Assembly (NCBI GenBank): GCA_020049575.1
Contig: JAIFKM010000044.1
Coordinates: forward strand, 84,722 to 125,272
DNA: 40,551 bases
Source of the DNA: Desulfobulbaceae bacterium
Lineage (GTDB): Bacteria; Desulfobacterota; Desulfobulbia; Desulfobulbales; Desulfocapsaceae
Direction: 5' to 3'
Made by a program: the position numbers and the translations under genes. Under the pieces are notes generated by a model. That model did no database searches. It had not been told where the DNA came from and saw nothing but the letters and a program-made list of their open reading frames with translations. Positions 7,372 through 34,467 of this stretch are shown piece after piece; the stretch's first letter is position 1, and each line of letters starts with the position of its first letter.

Positions 7372-9831
7372 ATGTCCAGATTCTTCATCAATCGCCCTAT
7401 AGTGGCGATGGTCATCTCCATCCTGATGACCATCATCGGGCTGGTAGCCATGACCGGCCTGCCCATTGCCCAGTTTCCCAATATCGTCCCTCCGGAAATC
7501 AAAGTCTCGAGCACCTATACCGGAGCCGATGCCCTGACCGTCGAACAGGCGGTGGCCACCCCGATCGAACAGCAGATGTCCGGCGTCGACAACATGAACT
7601 ACATGTACTCGATCAATGCCAACAGCGGCTCATCAACGCTGACCGTGAACTTCGACATCGCCACCGACGCCAACACTGATCAGTTACTGGCCCAGATGCG
7701 CAAGGGTCAGGCCGAATCCCAATTACCTGCCGATGTGCGCAACTTCGGTATCACCGTCCAGAAATCGACGGCCTCGCCGCTCCTGCTGTTCGGGCTCTAT
7801 TCGCCGAACGGCAGCTACGATAATATTTTCCTGGCCAACTATGCCTTTATCAACATCAATGACCAGATGACCCGGGTTAAAGGGATTGCCAGCATTACCG
7901 TCTTCGGTGCCGGCCAATACGCCATGCGGTTGTGGGTCAAGCCGGATCAACTGGCCAAGCTCAATATCACCATCCCGGAGATCGTCAACGCGGTGAATGC
8001 CCAGAACACCGTTAACCCGGCAGGAACAGTGGGCGCGGAACCCGTACCCAAGGGCCAGGAATTCACCTATGCTGTGCGCGCCCAGGGGCGGCTGCAGACT
8101 GAAGAAGACTTTGGTGCGGTCGTCCTGCGGGCAAACGCCGACGGTTCTATCGTTCGGGTTGCAGATGTTGCCCGCATAGAACTCGGAGCCCAGACCTACA
8201 ACCTCCAGGGCCGGCTCAACGGCAAGCCTGCCGCCATTATCGCCCTCTACCAGATGCCGGGCACCAACGCCCTCGAAGCTGCCGGTGGCGCCAAGAAACT
8301 GATGGCGGAAATCAAGGAGAGCTTTCCGCCTGATCTGGATTACGTCATTGCCCTCGATACTACCCTGTCAGTCACCGAAGGGATTAAGGAGATCCAGAAG
8401 ACCCTGGTCGAGGCTTTGATTCTGGTTATCTTCGTTGTCTTCATCTTCCTCCAGGGGTGGCGCGCGACACTCATCCCGCTACTGGCCGTGCCGGTGTCGC
8501 TGGTCGGCACCTTCATGCTTTTCCCGGCCTTCGGTTTTTCGATCAATACCCTCTCTCTCTTTGGTCTGGTGCTGGCCATCGGACTGGTCGTCGATGATGC
8601 CATTGTCGTTGTTGAGGCGGTCGAACATCACATTGATCACGGTCTGTCGCCCAGGGATGCGACGTTCAGGGCGATGGAGGAGGTAACCGGTCCGGTTATC
8701 GCCATTGCCATCATTCTGGCCGCCGTTTTCGTGCCGACGGCCTTTATCCCCGGGATTACCGGCCAACTCTATCAACAGTTCGCCGTCACCATTGCCATTT
8801 CGGTGATTATTTCGGCCTTCAATGCCCTCACCCTCAGTCCAGCCCTGTGTGCCTTGCTCCTTAAACCCAAGAGCAAAAAAGGCGGACCGCTGCAGAAGTT
8901 CTATGACTGGTTCAACCGTGGTTTCGGCCGTGCCACCGACGGCTATGTAGGTGTCTGCCGTTTTGCCATCCGCAAGAGCTTTGTCAGTCTTCTTTTTCTG
9001 CTAGGAGTTGCTGCCATGGCTGGATTCTTCGGTAAGACGGTACCTTCCGGATTTCTGCCCGAAGAGGATCAGGGCTATGTCTATGCCGGAATCCAGCTGC
9101 CCGACGGGGCCTCTTTGCAGCGTACCGATGAGATTACCAGACAGGCCGAAAAACTCATCATGAGCACCCCGGGTGTGAAGTATACCACCTCGGTCATCGG
9201 CTACAGCATGCTCAGCCAGGTGCAGAACACCTACAGCGCCTTCTTCTTTATCACCCTGAAGGAATGGGGCGAGCGCACGGCGCCCGAGGAACAGTATGCC
9301 GCCATCAAAGCCGAGTTGACCCGCAAACTCGGAGGGATCAGCGGCGCAATCGGGTTCGCCTTCCCGCCGCCGGCCATCCCCGGTGTCGGTACCTCGGGTG
9401 GCGCCACCTTTATCCTGGAAGATCGTGCCGGCCGCGACATCGCTTTCCTGGCTGAGAATACCAGCAAGTTTGTCGAGGCGGCGAAAAAACGACCTGAACT
9501 GGCCAGCGTCTCGACGACCTTCCGACCGACGGTGCCGCAGATCTTTATCGACGTCGATCGCGACAAGGTCTTGAAGCAGGGTGTCAATATCAACGATGTA
9601 TACAAGACCCTGCAAAGCTTTCTTGGTAGTGGGTTTATAAATTATTTCAACAGATTCGGGCGCCAGTGGCAGGGCTTTATTCACGCCGCACGGGAGCAAC
9701 GGGCGAACAAAATAAACACATCACCGCTGCGCCGTGGCCTGGCACAACGGGGTGAACTCGCCTCGGAGCGCCCAGATAAATGCCTCGGGTGCCGCCGGCG
9801 TCAGCTCGGCCCAGGTCATGAAAGCCCTTGA
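7372..9831 (+). CDS. RND efflux pump, AcrB/MexB (HAE-1) family, N-terminal part of a frameshifted gene
   Basis: The inner-membrane drug/proton antiporter subunit begins with MSRFFINRPIVAMVISILM and keeps family similarity to about residue 782 (QWQGFIHAAREQRAN). It contains the first transmembrane helix, the porter domain, and the helix set with GLVVDDAIVVVEAVEHH near residue 403. The paired aspartates there belong to the proton relay. From about nucleotide 9718 to the stop at 9831 the translation is arginine-rich and unlike the family. Similarity resumes in another frame near 9766. The expected docking-domain segment is about 65 bases shorter than in AcrB. The pump is therefore probably non-functional as written, unless the break is a sequencing error. 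Only two of its functional parts, the adaptor and the outer-membrane factor, look intact. Confidence 0.9.
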   Translation: MSRFFINRPIVAMVISILMTIIGLVAMTGLPIAQFPNIVPPEIKVSSTYTGADALTVEQAVATPIEQQMSGVDNMNYMYSINANSGSSTLTVNFDIATDANTDQLLAQMRKGQAESQLPADVRNFGITVQKSTASPLLLFGLYSPNGSYDNIFLANYAFININDQMTRVKGIASITVFGAGQYAMRLWVKPDQLAKLNITIPEIVNAVNAQNTVNPAGTVGAEPVPKGQEFTYAVRAQGRLQTEEDFGAVVLRANADGSIVRVADVARIELGAQTYNLQGRLNGKPAAIIALYQMPGTNALEAAGGAKKLMAEIKESFPPDLDYVIALDTTLSVTEGIKEIQKTLVEALILVIFVVFIFLQGWRATLIPLLAVPVSLVGTFMLFPAFGFSINTLSLFGLVLAIGLVVDDAIVVVEAVEHHIDHGLSPRDATFRAMEEVTGPVIAIAIILAAVFVPTAFIPGITGQLYQQFAVTIAISVIISAFNALTLSPALCALLLKPKSKKGGPLQKFYDWFNRGFGRATDGYVGVCRFAIRKSFVSLLFLLGVAAMAGFFGKTVPSGFLPEEDQGYVYAGIQLPDGASLQRTDEITRQAEKLIMSTPGVKYTTSVIGYSMLSQVQNTYSAFFFITLKEWGERTAPEEQYAAIKAELTRKLGGISGAIGFAFPPPAIPGVGTSGGATFILEDRAGRDIAFLAENTSKFVEAAKKRPELASVSTTFRPTVPQIFIDVDRDKVLKQGVNINDVYKTLQSFLGSGFINYFNRFGRQWQGFIHAAREQRANKINTSPLRRGLAQRGELASERPDKCLGCRRRQLGPGHESP

Positions 9832-10507
9832 GGAAGTGTTCGAACAGACCATGCCTAAGGAGATGGGCTATGACTACATGGGCATGTCGTACCAGGAGAA
9901 GCGGGCCCAGGAAGGTATCTCGCCGATGGTGATTTTCGCCTTCTCACTGCTCTGCGTCTTCCTGATCCTGGCGGCCCAGTACGAGAGCTGGTCGCTGCCG
10001 TTCTCGGTTTTGCTCGGTACCCCGATAGCGGTGGCAGGAGCTTTTGCGGCACTGCTGTGGCGCGGCCAGGAGAATAACGTTTATGCCCAGATCGGTCTGG
10101 TCATGCTCATCGGTCTCGCTGCCAAAAACGCCATCCTGATCGTCGAATTCGCCAAGATGGAGTACGAGAAGGGCGAAGAATCACTGATCGAGGCAACTCT
10201 CAGGGGGGCCCGCCTTCGTCTGCGGCCGATCCTGATGACCTCGTTTGCCTTCATCCTCGGCTGTGTGCCGCTGGCCATTGCCCAGGGCGCCGGGGCGGTA
10301 TCGCGGCAGGTGATGGGCAGCACCGTCATCGGCGGCATGCTGGCTGCCTCGTTCATCGCTATTTTTATCGTGCCAGTCACCTTCTATGTGGTCGAAAAAC
10401 TCGGACATCGGCAAGGGAAGGCAGTTTCCGCCGTTTCCGGACTTGAAGGGCCCCCAGGGGAATCATCCTCGGCACCTGGCGAAAAGGAGGGTGGACATCA
10501 TGCATAA
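9734..10507 (+). CDS. RND efflux pump, C-terminal part of the same frameshifted gene
   Basis: From about residue 11 (RSAQINASGAAGVSS, nucleotide 9764 onward) this frame matches the last 245 or so residues of AcrB/MexB pumps. It includes MGYDYMGMSYQE, the helix AAQYESWSLPFSVLLGTPIA, GLAAKNAILIVEFAKM and RLRPILMTSFAFILGCVPLA. The GTG at 9734 merely opens the frame; no ribosome binding site supports independent translation. Together with the preceding part, 7372-10507 spans about 1045 codons, the normal length for this family. It ends with an eight-base overlap into the outer-membrane factor gene, which retains its own strong AGGAGG site and could still be translated. Confidence 0.85.
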   Translation: MAWHNGVNSPRSAQINASGAAGVSSAQVMKALEEVFEQTMPKEMGYDYMGMSYQEKRAQEGISPMVIFAFSLLCVFLILAAQYESWSLPFSVLLGTPIAVAGAFAALLWRGQENNVYAQIGLVMLIGLAAKNAILIVEFAKMEYEKGEESLIEATLRGARLRLRPILMTSFAFILGCVPLAIAQGAGAVSRQVMGSTVIGGMLAASFIAIFIVPVTFYVVEKLGHRQGKAVSAVSGLEGPPGESSSAPGEKEGGHHA

Positions 10508-31943: not shown

Positions 31944-32036
31944 CGAATCATCTTCAAAATCGGAACAGGGACAGGACAATTCTACACCGTCCAGTTGACG
32001 GAACGAAGGACTGTAGAGTCTTTCAGGGAACAGGGT

Positions 32037-33836
32037 ATGGATCAGGAAAAAATTCGTAATGTGGCAATTATCGCTCATGTCGATCATGGGAAAACTACGC
32101 TTGTCGACCAGCTTTTCAAGCACTCGGGAATGTTTCGCGACAATCAGCAGGTTACCGAACGGCTGATGGATTCGATGGATCTCGAGAAGGAGCGGGGTAT
32201 TACGATTACCGCCAAGAACGGTTCTTACAAATATAAAGATTACTGGATAAATATCATCGACACCCCCGGACATGCCGATTTTGGCGGTCAGGTCGAACGC
32301 GTCCTGCGGATGGCCGATGGAGCACTGCTGCTTGTCGATGCCCAGGAGGGGCCGATGCCTCAGACCTATTTTGTTCTCAAAAAGGCCCTGGAAAATCATC
32401 TTCCCGTTGTCGTGGTGATCAATAAAATAGATAAACCGGCGGCACGTTGCGAATGGGTTGTAGATCAGGTTTTTGACCTTTTCGTCAAGCTTAATGCTCC
32501 CGATGACACCCTTGATTTTCCGGTGGTCTACACCTCCGCCAAAGACGGCTATTCGATGCTCGAACTCGGCGAACCTCTTGAAAACTGTCGGAATATGGAT
32601 AGTGTGTCAGAGGTCATCGTTAATCATATTCCAGCACCCAAAGGGGCAGCTACTGAGCCTCTGCAGATGCAGGTTGGTACTATTGATTATTCACCCTATC
32701 TTGGACGCCTTGGAATCGGCAAGGTGGTTAATGGCACGATGTCGATTAATCAGCCTATCGTCGTGGCCAGACGGGATGGATCCATCAAGCCGGTCCGTAT
32801 CTCAAAAATCTTTCGTTTCGAGTGCTCTGAGAAAATTGCCATTGAAACAGCCGGTGTTGGTGAAATCGTTGCAATAGCCGGTATGGAGGACGTGACTGTG
32901 GGAGTTACTTTTACCGATCCAGAAAACCCGCGGCCGCTGCCGCTGATTTCGATCGATCCGCCCACCATCTCGATGAATTTTATCCCCAATGATTCGCCGT
33001 TTGCCGGCAAGGAGGGAAAGTTCGTAACTTCCCGGCATATTGAAGAGCGCCTGCAGCGGGAGACCCTGGTGGATGTGGCCCTGCGTTACGAGGTTCTGAC
33101 CGATGCCGTAGGTTTTAAGGTTTCCGGTCGTGGTGAACTGCATCTCTCCATCCTCATCGAAAAGATGCGGCGTGAAGGCTATGAGTTGCAGGTGACCAGG
33201 CCGCAGGTCATCATGAAGGAAGAAGATGGCCAGATGCTCGAACCTTATGAAAAACTCACTGTTGATGTGGATGAACTTTACCAGGGAGCAGTTATTGAAA
33301 AACTTGGCAAACTGAAAGGCCAGATGGAAGAGATGAATACCGCCCACGGCATGGTGCGCATGGTCTTCAACATCCCGACCAGAGGGCTGCTTGGTTACCG
33401 ATCACAGTTCATGACCGACACAAAGGGCATGGGCATGATGAATTATATCTTCTCCGAATACGGTCCCTATGCCGGAGATATCGGCAACCGGATCAACGGC
33501 GTGCTGGTGGTGAAGGAACCTTGCACGGCGGTGGCCTATGCCCTGTTCAACCTCCAGGACCGCGGTAAACTTTTTATCAACCCGGGTGCCCCGCTGTATC
33601 CGGGCCAGATAATCGGCGAACATTGCCGGGCCGCTGATCTGGTTGTCAACCCGGCCAAGGGAAAGAAACTGACCAATATGCGGGCCTCGGGTTCCGATGA
33701 AGCAGTCATCCTTACGCCACCGATGATGATGACCCTGGAAGACTGTATTGCCTATATCAACGATGACGAACTGGTCGAAGTGACTCCTGAGTCGATCCGC
33801 CTGAGGAAAAAGACGGGAGTGAAACTCAGAGCCTGA
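32037..33836 (+). CDS. typA: TypA/BipA ribosome-associated GTPase (599 aa)
   Basis: This translational GTPase binds the 70S ribosome and supports growth at low temperature or under stress in known bacteria. G1 is AHVDHGKTT near residue 14, the effector region is ERGITITAKNGS, G3 is DTPGHADFGG near 74, and G4 is NKID near 128. EF-G-like domains III and V follow, then the TypA-specific C-terminal domain with RGLLGYRSQFMTDTKGMG near 450. The length is normal. I start at ATG 32037, where the family begins (MDQEKIRNVAIIAHVDHGK); the frame is open further upstream to 31995. AGGGAACAGGG precedes the start. The small TGA-containing membrane ORF follows 13 bases after the stop. Confidence 0.96.
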   Translation: MDQEKIRNVAIIAHVDHGKTTLVDQLFKHSGMFRDNQQVTERLMDSMDLEKERGITITAKNGSYKYKDYWINIIDTPGHADFGGQVERVLRMADGALLLVDAQEGPMPQTYFVLKKALENHLPVVVVINKIDKPAARCEWVVDQVFDLFVKLNAPDDTLDFPVVYTSAKDGYSMLELGEPLENCRNMDSVSEVIVNHIPAPKGAATEPLQMQVGTIDYSPYLGRLGIGKVVNGTMSINQPIVVARRDGSIKPVRISKIFRFECSEKIAIETAGVGEIVAIAGMEDVTVGVTFTDPENPRPLPLISIDPPTISMNFIPNDSPFAGKEGKFVTSRHIEERLQRETLVDVALRYEVLTDAVGFKVSGRGELHLSILIEKMRREGYELQVTRPQVIMKEEDGQMLEPYEKLTVDVDELYQGAVIEKLGKLKGQMEEMNTAHGMVRMVFNIPTRGLLGYRSQFMTDTKGMGMMNYIFSEYGPYAGDIGNRINGVLVVKEPCTAVAYALFNLQDRGKLFINPGAPLYPGQIIGEHCRAADLVVNPAKGKKLTNMRASGSDEAVILTPPMMMTLEDCIAYINDDELVEVTPESIRLRKKTGVKLRA

Positions 33837-33849
33837 TGTGAGGTATGGT

Positions 33850-34011
33850 ATGAAAGGACTGCTTCTGCTGCTGTTGTCAGGAGGGATCGGCATTGCCACC
33901 TTCGCAGTCATTGCCAAAAAGTACGGCAGTGACTGTATGCCCTGACTCATGGTTTACGGATCCGTGGGCATGGGTCTTCTCACCTTCTGGCTGCTGCAGG
34001 CTATTTTTTAA
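33850..34011 (+). CDS. Small two-helix membrane protein with in-frame TGA; candidate selenoprotein
   Basis: The frame opens with ATG 33850, preceded by a GAGG element 13 bases after typA. It encodes a hydrophobic helix (MKGLLLLLLSGGIGIATFAV), a short loop KKYGSDCMP, then TGA at 33943-33945. The frame then continues with LMVYGSVGMGLLTFWLLQAI, a second helix, to TAA at 34009-34011. Reading TGA as selenocysteine gives 53 residues with a CxxU motif between two helices. Codon bias is similar on both sides. A possible bacterial SECIS hairpin follows: GTGGG 33964-33968 pairs with CTCAC 33979-33983. An extra A-U pair leaves a loop containing GGG, with its first base 25 bases past the TGA. If the TGA is a normal stop, the product is a 31-residue one-helix peptide. 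A nonsense mutation is the other explanation. I recognise no family. Confidence 0.45.
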
Positions 34012-34026
34012 AGCCGGTATAATGGT

Positions 34027-34467
34027 CTACGCCGAGCATTTGCCGGCTGCAAAATAGTCTGCCAGGATCTTGGCATGATCAAAGACCAGGCGAGGCATGG
34101 TTTCTTCGCTGAAGAGTCCGGCTCGACCGGCGTCATCGCCGGCTACCGGGCTGCCCTCTGCCTTGCCGATAAACACCGTAGACGCCGTGTGTTGTCTGGC
34201 ATCTCGGCTCGGATCCGAATAGGTATGAAACTGCCTGAGATCCTTAACCTCCAATCCTGTTTCCTCAAAGGCCTCCCGCAGGGCAGCCATCTCGTACGAT
34301 TCCCCGTAATCCACAAAACCTCCAGGCAGAGCCCAGCCGTATGGTGGATTCTTTCTCTCGATTAAAACAATCCTTCCGCCGATTTCAATGATGATATCAA
34401 CAGTTGCCGAAGGTCCTCTGGGGAGCGTGAGAGGTTTCTGGCAGTGGGGGCATTTTACGATGGCCAT
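34027..34467 (-). CDS. Nudix hydrolase with N-terminal zinc ribbon (146 aa)
   Basis: This nucleoside-diphosphate-linked pyrophosphatase has a complete Nudix box, GX5EX7REUXEEXGU, visible as [20 protein letters not shown] followed by TGL, about residues 50-72. An N-terminal CPHC pair (residues 6-9) could form half of a small zinc site. [14 protein letters not shown] with the preceding ERKNPPYGW suits ADP-ribose or NADH-type pyrophosphatases, but the substrate cannot be fixed. It starts one base after the stop of the HAD gene, so it belongs to that minus-strand operon. Confidence 0.88.

Follow-up and report, generated by a model that had tools for sequence, protein, structure and literature searches.

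An apparently uncatalogued family of predicted two-helix membrane selenoproteins, likely decoded through an intragenic hairpin, in Desulfobulbales

Comparative evidence suggests that a 53-codon gene with an in-frame TGA belongs to a previously uncatalogued family of bacterial selenoproteins. The gene lies in a stretch of 40,551 nt from a Desulfobulbaceae genome (the window; features in Table 1), and we put the probability of this explanation as a whole, including an inferred redox role, at about 0.9. Its parts are not equally secure. It is nearly certain, on comparison of homologues and without protein-level proof, that selenocysteine (Sec) is inserted at the UGA at 33943 and that the protein is thus a selenoprotein, while a redox role, which is inferred, is somewhat better than an even bet. 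With TGA read as Sec (U), the frame yields a product of 53 residues, MKGLLLLLLSGGIGIATFAVIAKKYGSDCMPULMVYGSVGMGLLTFWLLQAIF, and ends at a TAA stop at 34009–34011; annotation under the standard code would yield only a 31-residue fragment. The original prediction of a 53-codon frame with an in-frame TGA (33943–33945) and a CMPU motif is confirmed as made.

Table 1. Positions of the selenoprotein gene, its elements and its neighbors in the window
Feature	Position	Strand	Basis
Selenoprotein gene, 53 codons including a single TGA read through, stop TAA	33850..34011	+	Homologues across residues 1–53 in 157/193 related genomes and 214/258 order genomes
TGA read as selenocysteine, residue 32	33943..33945	+	TGA in 116/116 distinct order sequences; TGC (Cys) there in two genomes
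Cys29 codon, likely resolving cysteine of Cys-x-Pro-Sec	33934..33936	+	Cys in 116/116; absent only in divergent L182
Likely ribosome-binding site GAGGT, 5 nt ahead of ATG	33840..33844	+	Sequence
First predicted transmembrane helix, about residues 2–24, then Lys/Arg-rich loop	33853..33921	+	Hydropathy and charge (116 sequences); AlphaFold2
Second predicted transmembrane helix, residues 33–52, directly after selenocysteine	33946..34005	+	Hydropathy and charge (116 sequences); AlphaFold2
Likely SECIS hairpin; GGATCCGT and ATGGGTCT pair as the stem, GGGC (33966–33969) is the apical loop	33958..33977	+	Covariation; synonymous-codon null
Immediate upstream neighbor typA/bipA, a translational GTPase; gap of 13 nt	31995..33836	+	Pfam GTP_EFTU, BipA_C; typA directly upstream in 65/116 loci
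NUDIX hydrolase, convergent downstream neighbor	34027..34467	-	Pfam; NUDIX downstream in 49/116 loci

The read-through frame is, as judged from its homologues, conserved far beyond chance. A search with the read-through product matched 157/193 related genomes and, among the matches listed, each spans the TGA and has exactly one internal stop, a TGA. An order-wide profile search recovered the gene in 214/258 genomes and in 137/149 of the good genomes. Those relatives that carry names are MAGs assigned to Desulfobulbaceae, Desulfocapsaceae and Desulfocapsa sulfexigens, from which the order is inferred to be, probably, Desulfobulbales. Motif and stop counts are based on 116 distinct homologous sequences extracted from the window's order, all of which carry C-x-[PAST]-TGA-x3-Y with the TGA at an identical codon position; Cys at −3 and Tyr at +4 are invariant (116/116 each), and Pro occupies −1 in 105/116. 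The true stops of these sequences are mixed (TAA 55, TAG 31, TGA 30), and yet the internal codon is TAA or TAG in 0/116. Since a mere stop should be exchangeable, this argues that the internal TGA is not merely a stop. Purifying selection is equal on either side of it (pN/pS 0.294 before and 0.299 after, 41 pairs), which bears out the proposal that coding continues past the TGA.

These patterns bear directly on the reading of the TGA as an ordinary stop, under which the gene would encode a 31-residue single-helix peptide followed by a decayed or unrelated tail. Standard-code annotation would agree with such a peptide and no protein data exist, but purifying selection that is as strong on the tail as on the head, conservation across most genomes of the order, the absence of TAA or TAG from the internal codon of every extracted sequence, and the covariation and synonymous-codon results for a hairpin within the tail (below) leave this reading almost no room. 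A nonsense mutant or pseudogene is ruled out by read-through conservation, the TGA in all 116 sequences and equal pN/pS. Homologues that ended at the TGA, or that carried an unrelated sense codon there, would have spoken against the original prediction; none ends there, with the frame continuing beyond it, and TGC (Cys) is the sole sense codon seen.

Even-handed searches across the phylum (395 genomes) recovered the gene only in the window's order and in a second family (f54), where the TGA form is present in 17/99 genomes. A further match in the phylum, L206, is weak and belongs to a long membrane protein of the ferredoxin type, which is not a relative. Two further observations concern variation among the homologues. 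A divergent one (L182, genome G140) has kept the TGA and lost the partner cysteine, with GRPU in place of CxPU, and genome G015 has three matches (contigs C1, C41 and C42), two of which resemble one duplicated stretch, so that it may hold two distinct paralogues.

Homologues with Cys in place of Sec exist in two genomes only, both in one family of the order, in which TGC occupies the place of the Sec codon and the frame is free of internal stops (L178, CPAC, ...DDGCPACLAVNAAIAAALLAIYLLNRFF; L181, CPMC, ...EDGCPMCLALNAAIAAALLTLYILNRYLG). L181 lies directly upstream of mtnA, as do Sec forms in many other families, and because of this shared adjacency it is probably an ortholog. To go by their codons, these TGC forms and the TGA homologues are a classic Sec/Cys pair. 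Tyr36, Gly40 and Gly42 are missing from the Cys forms, and the codons of the two glycines build the loop and stem of a hairpin in the Sec forms. Because the Cys forms do without Gly40 and Gly42, these glycines are probably kept for the RNA and not for the protein; at least these two thus appear to be held by an RNA element. The gene offers a clean case in which glycine conservation is best explained by an RNA element inside the gene.

The hairpin at 33958–33977 begins 12 nt after the TGA (positions +13 to +32), with its apical loop 20 nt after the TGA. Covariation in its stem is 0.336, against 0.192 in shuffles and 0.05–0.13 when the partners are slid, and changes on both sides affect 104 cells, compared with 42 ± 4 under shuffling. 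Because shuffle counts exaggerate significance among related sequences, we added a second null in which synonymous codons were resampled with the amino acids fixed. Stem pairing again exceeds expectation (87% vs. 69 ± 1.3%), as does folding stability (mean MFE −9.7 vs. −6.6 ± 0.17 kcal/mol), and the second family shows a matching MFE excess (n = 12; −13.3 vs. −10.2, 0/300 nulls). Positions +15/+30 are both Gly third positions, and the 92 sequences that encode Gly at each include 32 with A-T and 31 with C-G, an exchange that, in the alignment, is compensatory and leaves the protein unchanged. This apparent conservation as RNA as well as code makes the hairpin a likely SECIS element. The published bacterial SECIS model (PMC13188914) places the loop 16–37 nt after the UGA and has G in the first two positions of the loop, and the hairpin fits it, with a loop that opens with G at a distance of 20 nt. 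In the window sequence alone an alternative fold competes with the hairpin, so the assignment rests on the family comparison.

The original prediction had placed its candidate hairpin at 33964–33983, slightly off the conserved one; that element has no covariation above shuffles (0.201 vs. 0.207) and is ruled out as the SECIS. A scan of the window against Rfam gave no match. Hairpin form also varies among genomes, some of which seem to make a shorter stem with a longer loop. Separately, 18 loci (L059, L065, L066, L068, L070, L074, L076, L078, L079, L082, L084, L086, L088, L091, L096, L100, L107 and L114) can instead fold a hairpin farther downstream, in the register GGTATG GGTCT CATATC, at about +22 to +38 after the TGA, and this hairpin is almost invariant in nucleotides over several families.

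Decoding would proceed by binding of SelB to the hairpin at 33958–33977, with its G-rich apical loop, and insertion of Sec at the UGA at 33943. A check for the host's selenocysteine genes, proposed with the original prediction, found some of them. The host genome (G000) has a tRNA-Sec with anticodon TCA and a selD (L048, G000:C12:6081-7028) that carries an in-frame TGA in its own active-site motif (VKAAGUAAKLG); the selenophosphate synthetase of this host is likely a selenoprotein in its own right. In the host assembly, which is 75.6% complete, selA has no match and selB nothing over the cut-off, with one of seven candidates unscored. Among relatives, selB scores above the cut-off in 165/193 genomes, all four congeners included.

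The product is most likely a two-helix membrane hairpin in which a redox-active Cys-x-Pro-Sec starts the second helix. AlphaFold2 predicts helices at residues 2–28 and 30–52 with moderate confidence (mean pLDDT 69). Sec32 follows a proline where helix 2 begins, with Cys29 nearby. The loop between the helices is basic (mean Lys+Arg 2.3, against 0.7 at each end; 116 sequences), which by the positive-inside rule favors a cytoplasmic loop, not decisively; its predicted site is probably the cytoplasmic side of the inner membrane. In the mechanism that we propose, Cys29-x-Pro-Sec32 would sit at the boundary of this loop and helix 2, between two membrane-spanning helices, and Cys29 and Sec32 would cycle through a reversible selenenylsulfide. 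The arrangement suits such a bond; this is inferred from the motif. The protein would then act as a minimal membrane thiol/selenol oxidoreductase that shuttles electrons between donors in solution and an acceptor in the membrane (quinone, lipid peroxide or reactive sulfur species), a role that is likewise inferred.

Neighboring genes differ among lineages and give only a weak hint of function. Co-transcription with typA, part of the original prediction, fits the window's own family, given the short gap and the frequency of typA upstream (Table 1), but other families have mtnA or rubredoxin as the neighbor, and typA is therefore unlikely to be a functional partner. The gene mtnA lies directly downstream of the selenoprotein gene in 34 loci (within L061–L116) from many families besides the window's own, and mtnA-linked loci often have a comF-like gene on the opposite side. 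Adjacency to typA and to mtnA may be plain synteny. In the second family, a rubredoxin gene directly precedes the selenoprotein gene in four loci (L204, L213, L215 and L217), and L209 has both rubredoxin and a rubrerythrin upstream, the latter recognized by eye; L063 has rubredoxin and a desulfoferrodoxin-like ORF, also recognized by eye, near the gene. These rubredoxin neighbors occur in more than one lineage and point, weakly, to oxygen or peroxide defense; the hint is weak because the neighbors vary by lineage (typA, mtnA, rubredoxin). Defense against oxidative stress is the best-supported guess at the role, though a tentative one, and the substrate is not established. Still more speculative is a membrane selenol relay, specific to the lineage and almost exclusively Sec-based, that would pass electrons carried by rubredoxin or thiols on to quinone or to peroxides in the membrane. 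Nearly all Desulfobulbales genomes would have kept it, its SECIS would lie on conserved Gly codons, and the helix register of this SECIS would have shifted at least once with the protein unchanged.

Elsewhere in the window an AcrB-type RND efflux pump is split between two overlapping ORFs in different frames, 7372–9831 (+) and 9734–10507 (+), which cover profile positions 1–770 and 809–1020 of 1021; by its sequence this gene carries a frameshift, either real or an assembly error.

Two other roles would leave the protein a selenoprotein. In one, which would replace thiol redox, Cys-x-Pro-Sec handles metals or selenium/sulfur species, and the protein serves as a chaperone or as a small accessory of a transporter. 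The tiny size and membrane setting of the product count in its favor, as do a weak score of the metal permease model NF033936 on one member (L005, E = 0.028) and a catalogued MerT-type selenoprotein with C/SxxU (PMC13188914); against this, no significant MerT or FeoB-associated match was found in 48 or in 36 members, and no metal-transport gene was recognized as a conserved neighbor, and we consider such a function unlikely. The other would place the protein in a larger membrane complex as a small accessory subunit, with Sec ligating a metal or stabilizing the complex. Proteins with two helices and some 50 residues often belong to complexes, and small residues recur on both helices, but no complex gene was recognized as a conserved neighbor in the families examined, and we hold this possibility in equally low regard. 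The membrane thiol/selenol oxidoreductase remains our preferred reading of the function.

A third alternative would make the protein a half-size relative of DsbB, that is, a quinone-linked CxxU module. The order of elements (transmembrane helix, CxxC, transmembrane helix) is that of DsbB, the Cys form L181 matches the NCBIfam DsbB model over residues 2–34 (E = 4.7e-4), roughly in register with the first helix and CxxC of DsbB, and Pfam DsbB reaches E = 0.068 in one member. The L181 match, however, is weak (19.9 bits, against a cut-off of 138) and confined to one member of 36, profile comparison (hhalign) with E. coli DsbB gives a probability of 0.7%, and the charge of the loop points to the other side of the membrane. 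DsbB comprises four helices with two periplasmic Cys pairs, whereas the new protein has two helices and one pair and so lacks TM3–4 and the second Cys pair. Membership in the DsbB family is rejected on the score, the profile comparison and this architecture, and even a more distant kinship appears quite improbable.

Comparison with other known systems likewise sets the selenoprotein family apart. Pfam gave no family match for the window protein or the searched members, NCBIfam 20.0 no relative, and the PDB no relative by sequence and, by fold, a best E of 3.7; a literature search found no paper joining Desulfobulbales with selenoproteins. A 2026 catalogue lists 119 selenoprotein families (PMC13188914), and the portion accessible to us, compared by description, contains none that is a two-helix membrane protein of about 53 residues. 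The family is apparently uncatalogued, being outside Pfam, NCBIfam, the PDB and, by description and to the extent that this catalogue was accessible, its 119 families. Bacterial UGA/SelB selenoproteins with CxxU (GrdA, DUF1858, AhpD-like and others; PMC13188914) resemble it in the in-frame UGA, a SECIS-like hairpin within the known range of distances, the CxxU redox motif and the existence of Cys homologues, but none is catalogued there with this size and topology, and the new family has no match to a Pfam or NCBIfam model. The MerT-type mercuric transport selenoprotein (PF02411) is also a small membrane protein with C/SxxU; PF02411 is absent among the best 25 of 27 Pfam families for 48 members at E ≤ 1, and the new protein has two helices in 53 residues. 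Thioredoxin-like CxxU proteins have an alpha/beta fold, whereas the new protein is predicted to be all-helical without strands (AlphaFold2, moderate confidence), and no thioredoxin family is among the Pfam matches listed.

Previous screening has touched this order. Deep-Sep (PMC12013277) screened two genomes of Desulfosediminicola, a genus of Desulfobulbales, and reported no such protein. Of its hypothetical selenoproteins DG, DW and DF (WP_419249779.1, SMF39960.1 and WP_419720682.1 in PMC13188914), DG and DF come from Desulfosediminicola; the motifs listed for them are GUxG and GxU, with none for DF, and not CxPU, a comparison by motif and not by full sequence. The new family has no NCBIfam hit. 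To pass the deep-Sep filter, a candidate needs either a Sec homologue that is already known or two or more Cys homologues within its top ten hits, and the authors state that selenoproteins without Cys homologues may be missed (PMC12013277); the filter would probably discard a family with Sec in nearly every homologue. A very small, membrane-embedded selenoprotein that is apparently near-universal in its order suggests that short, Sec-dominated selenoproteins go undetected.
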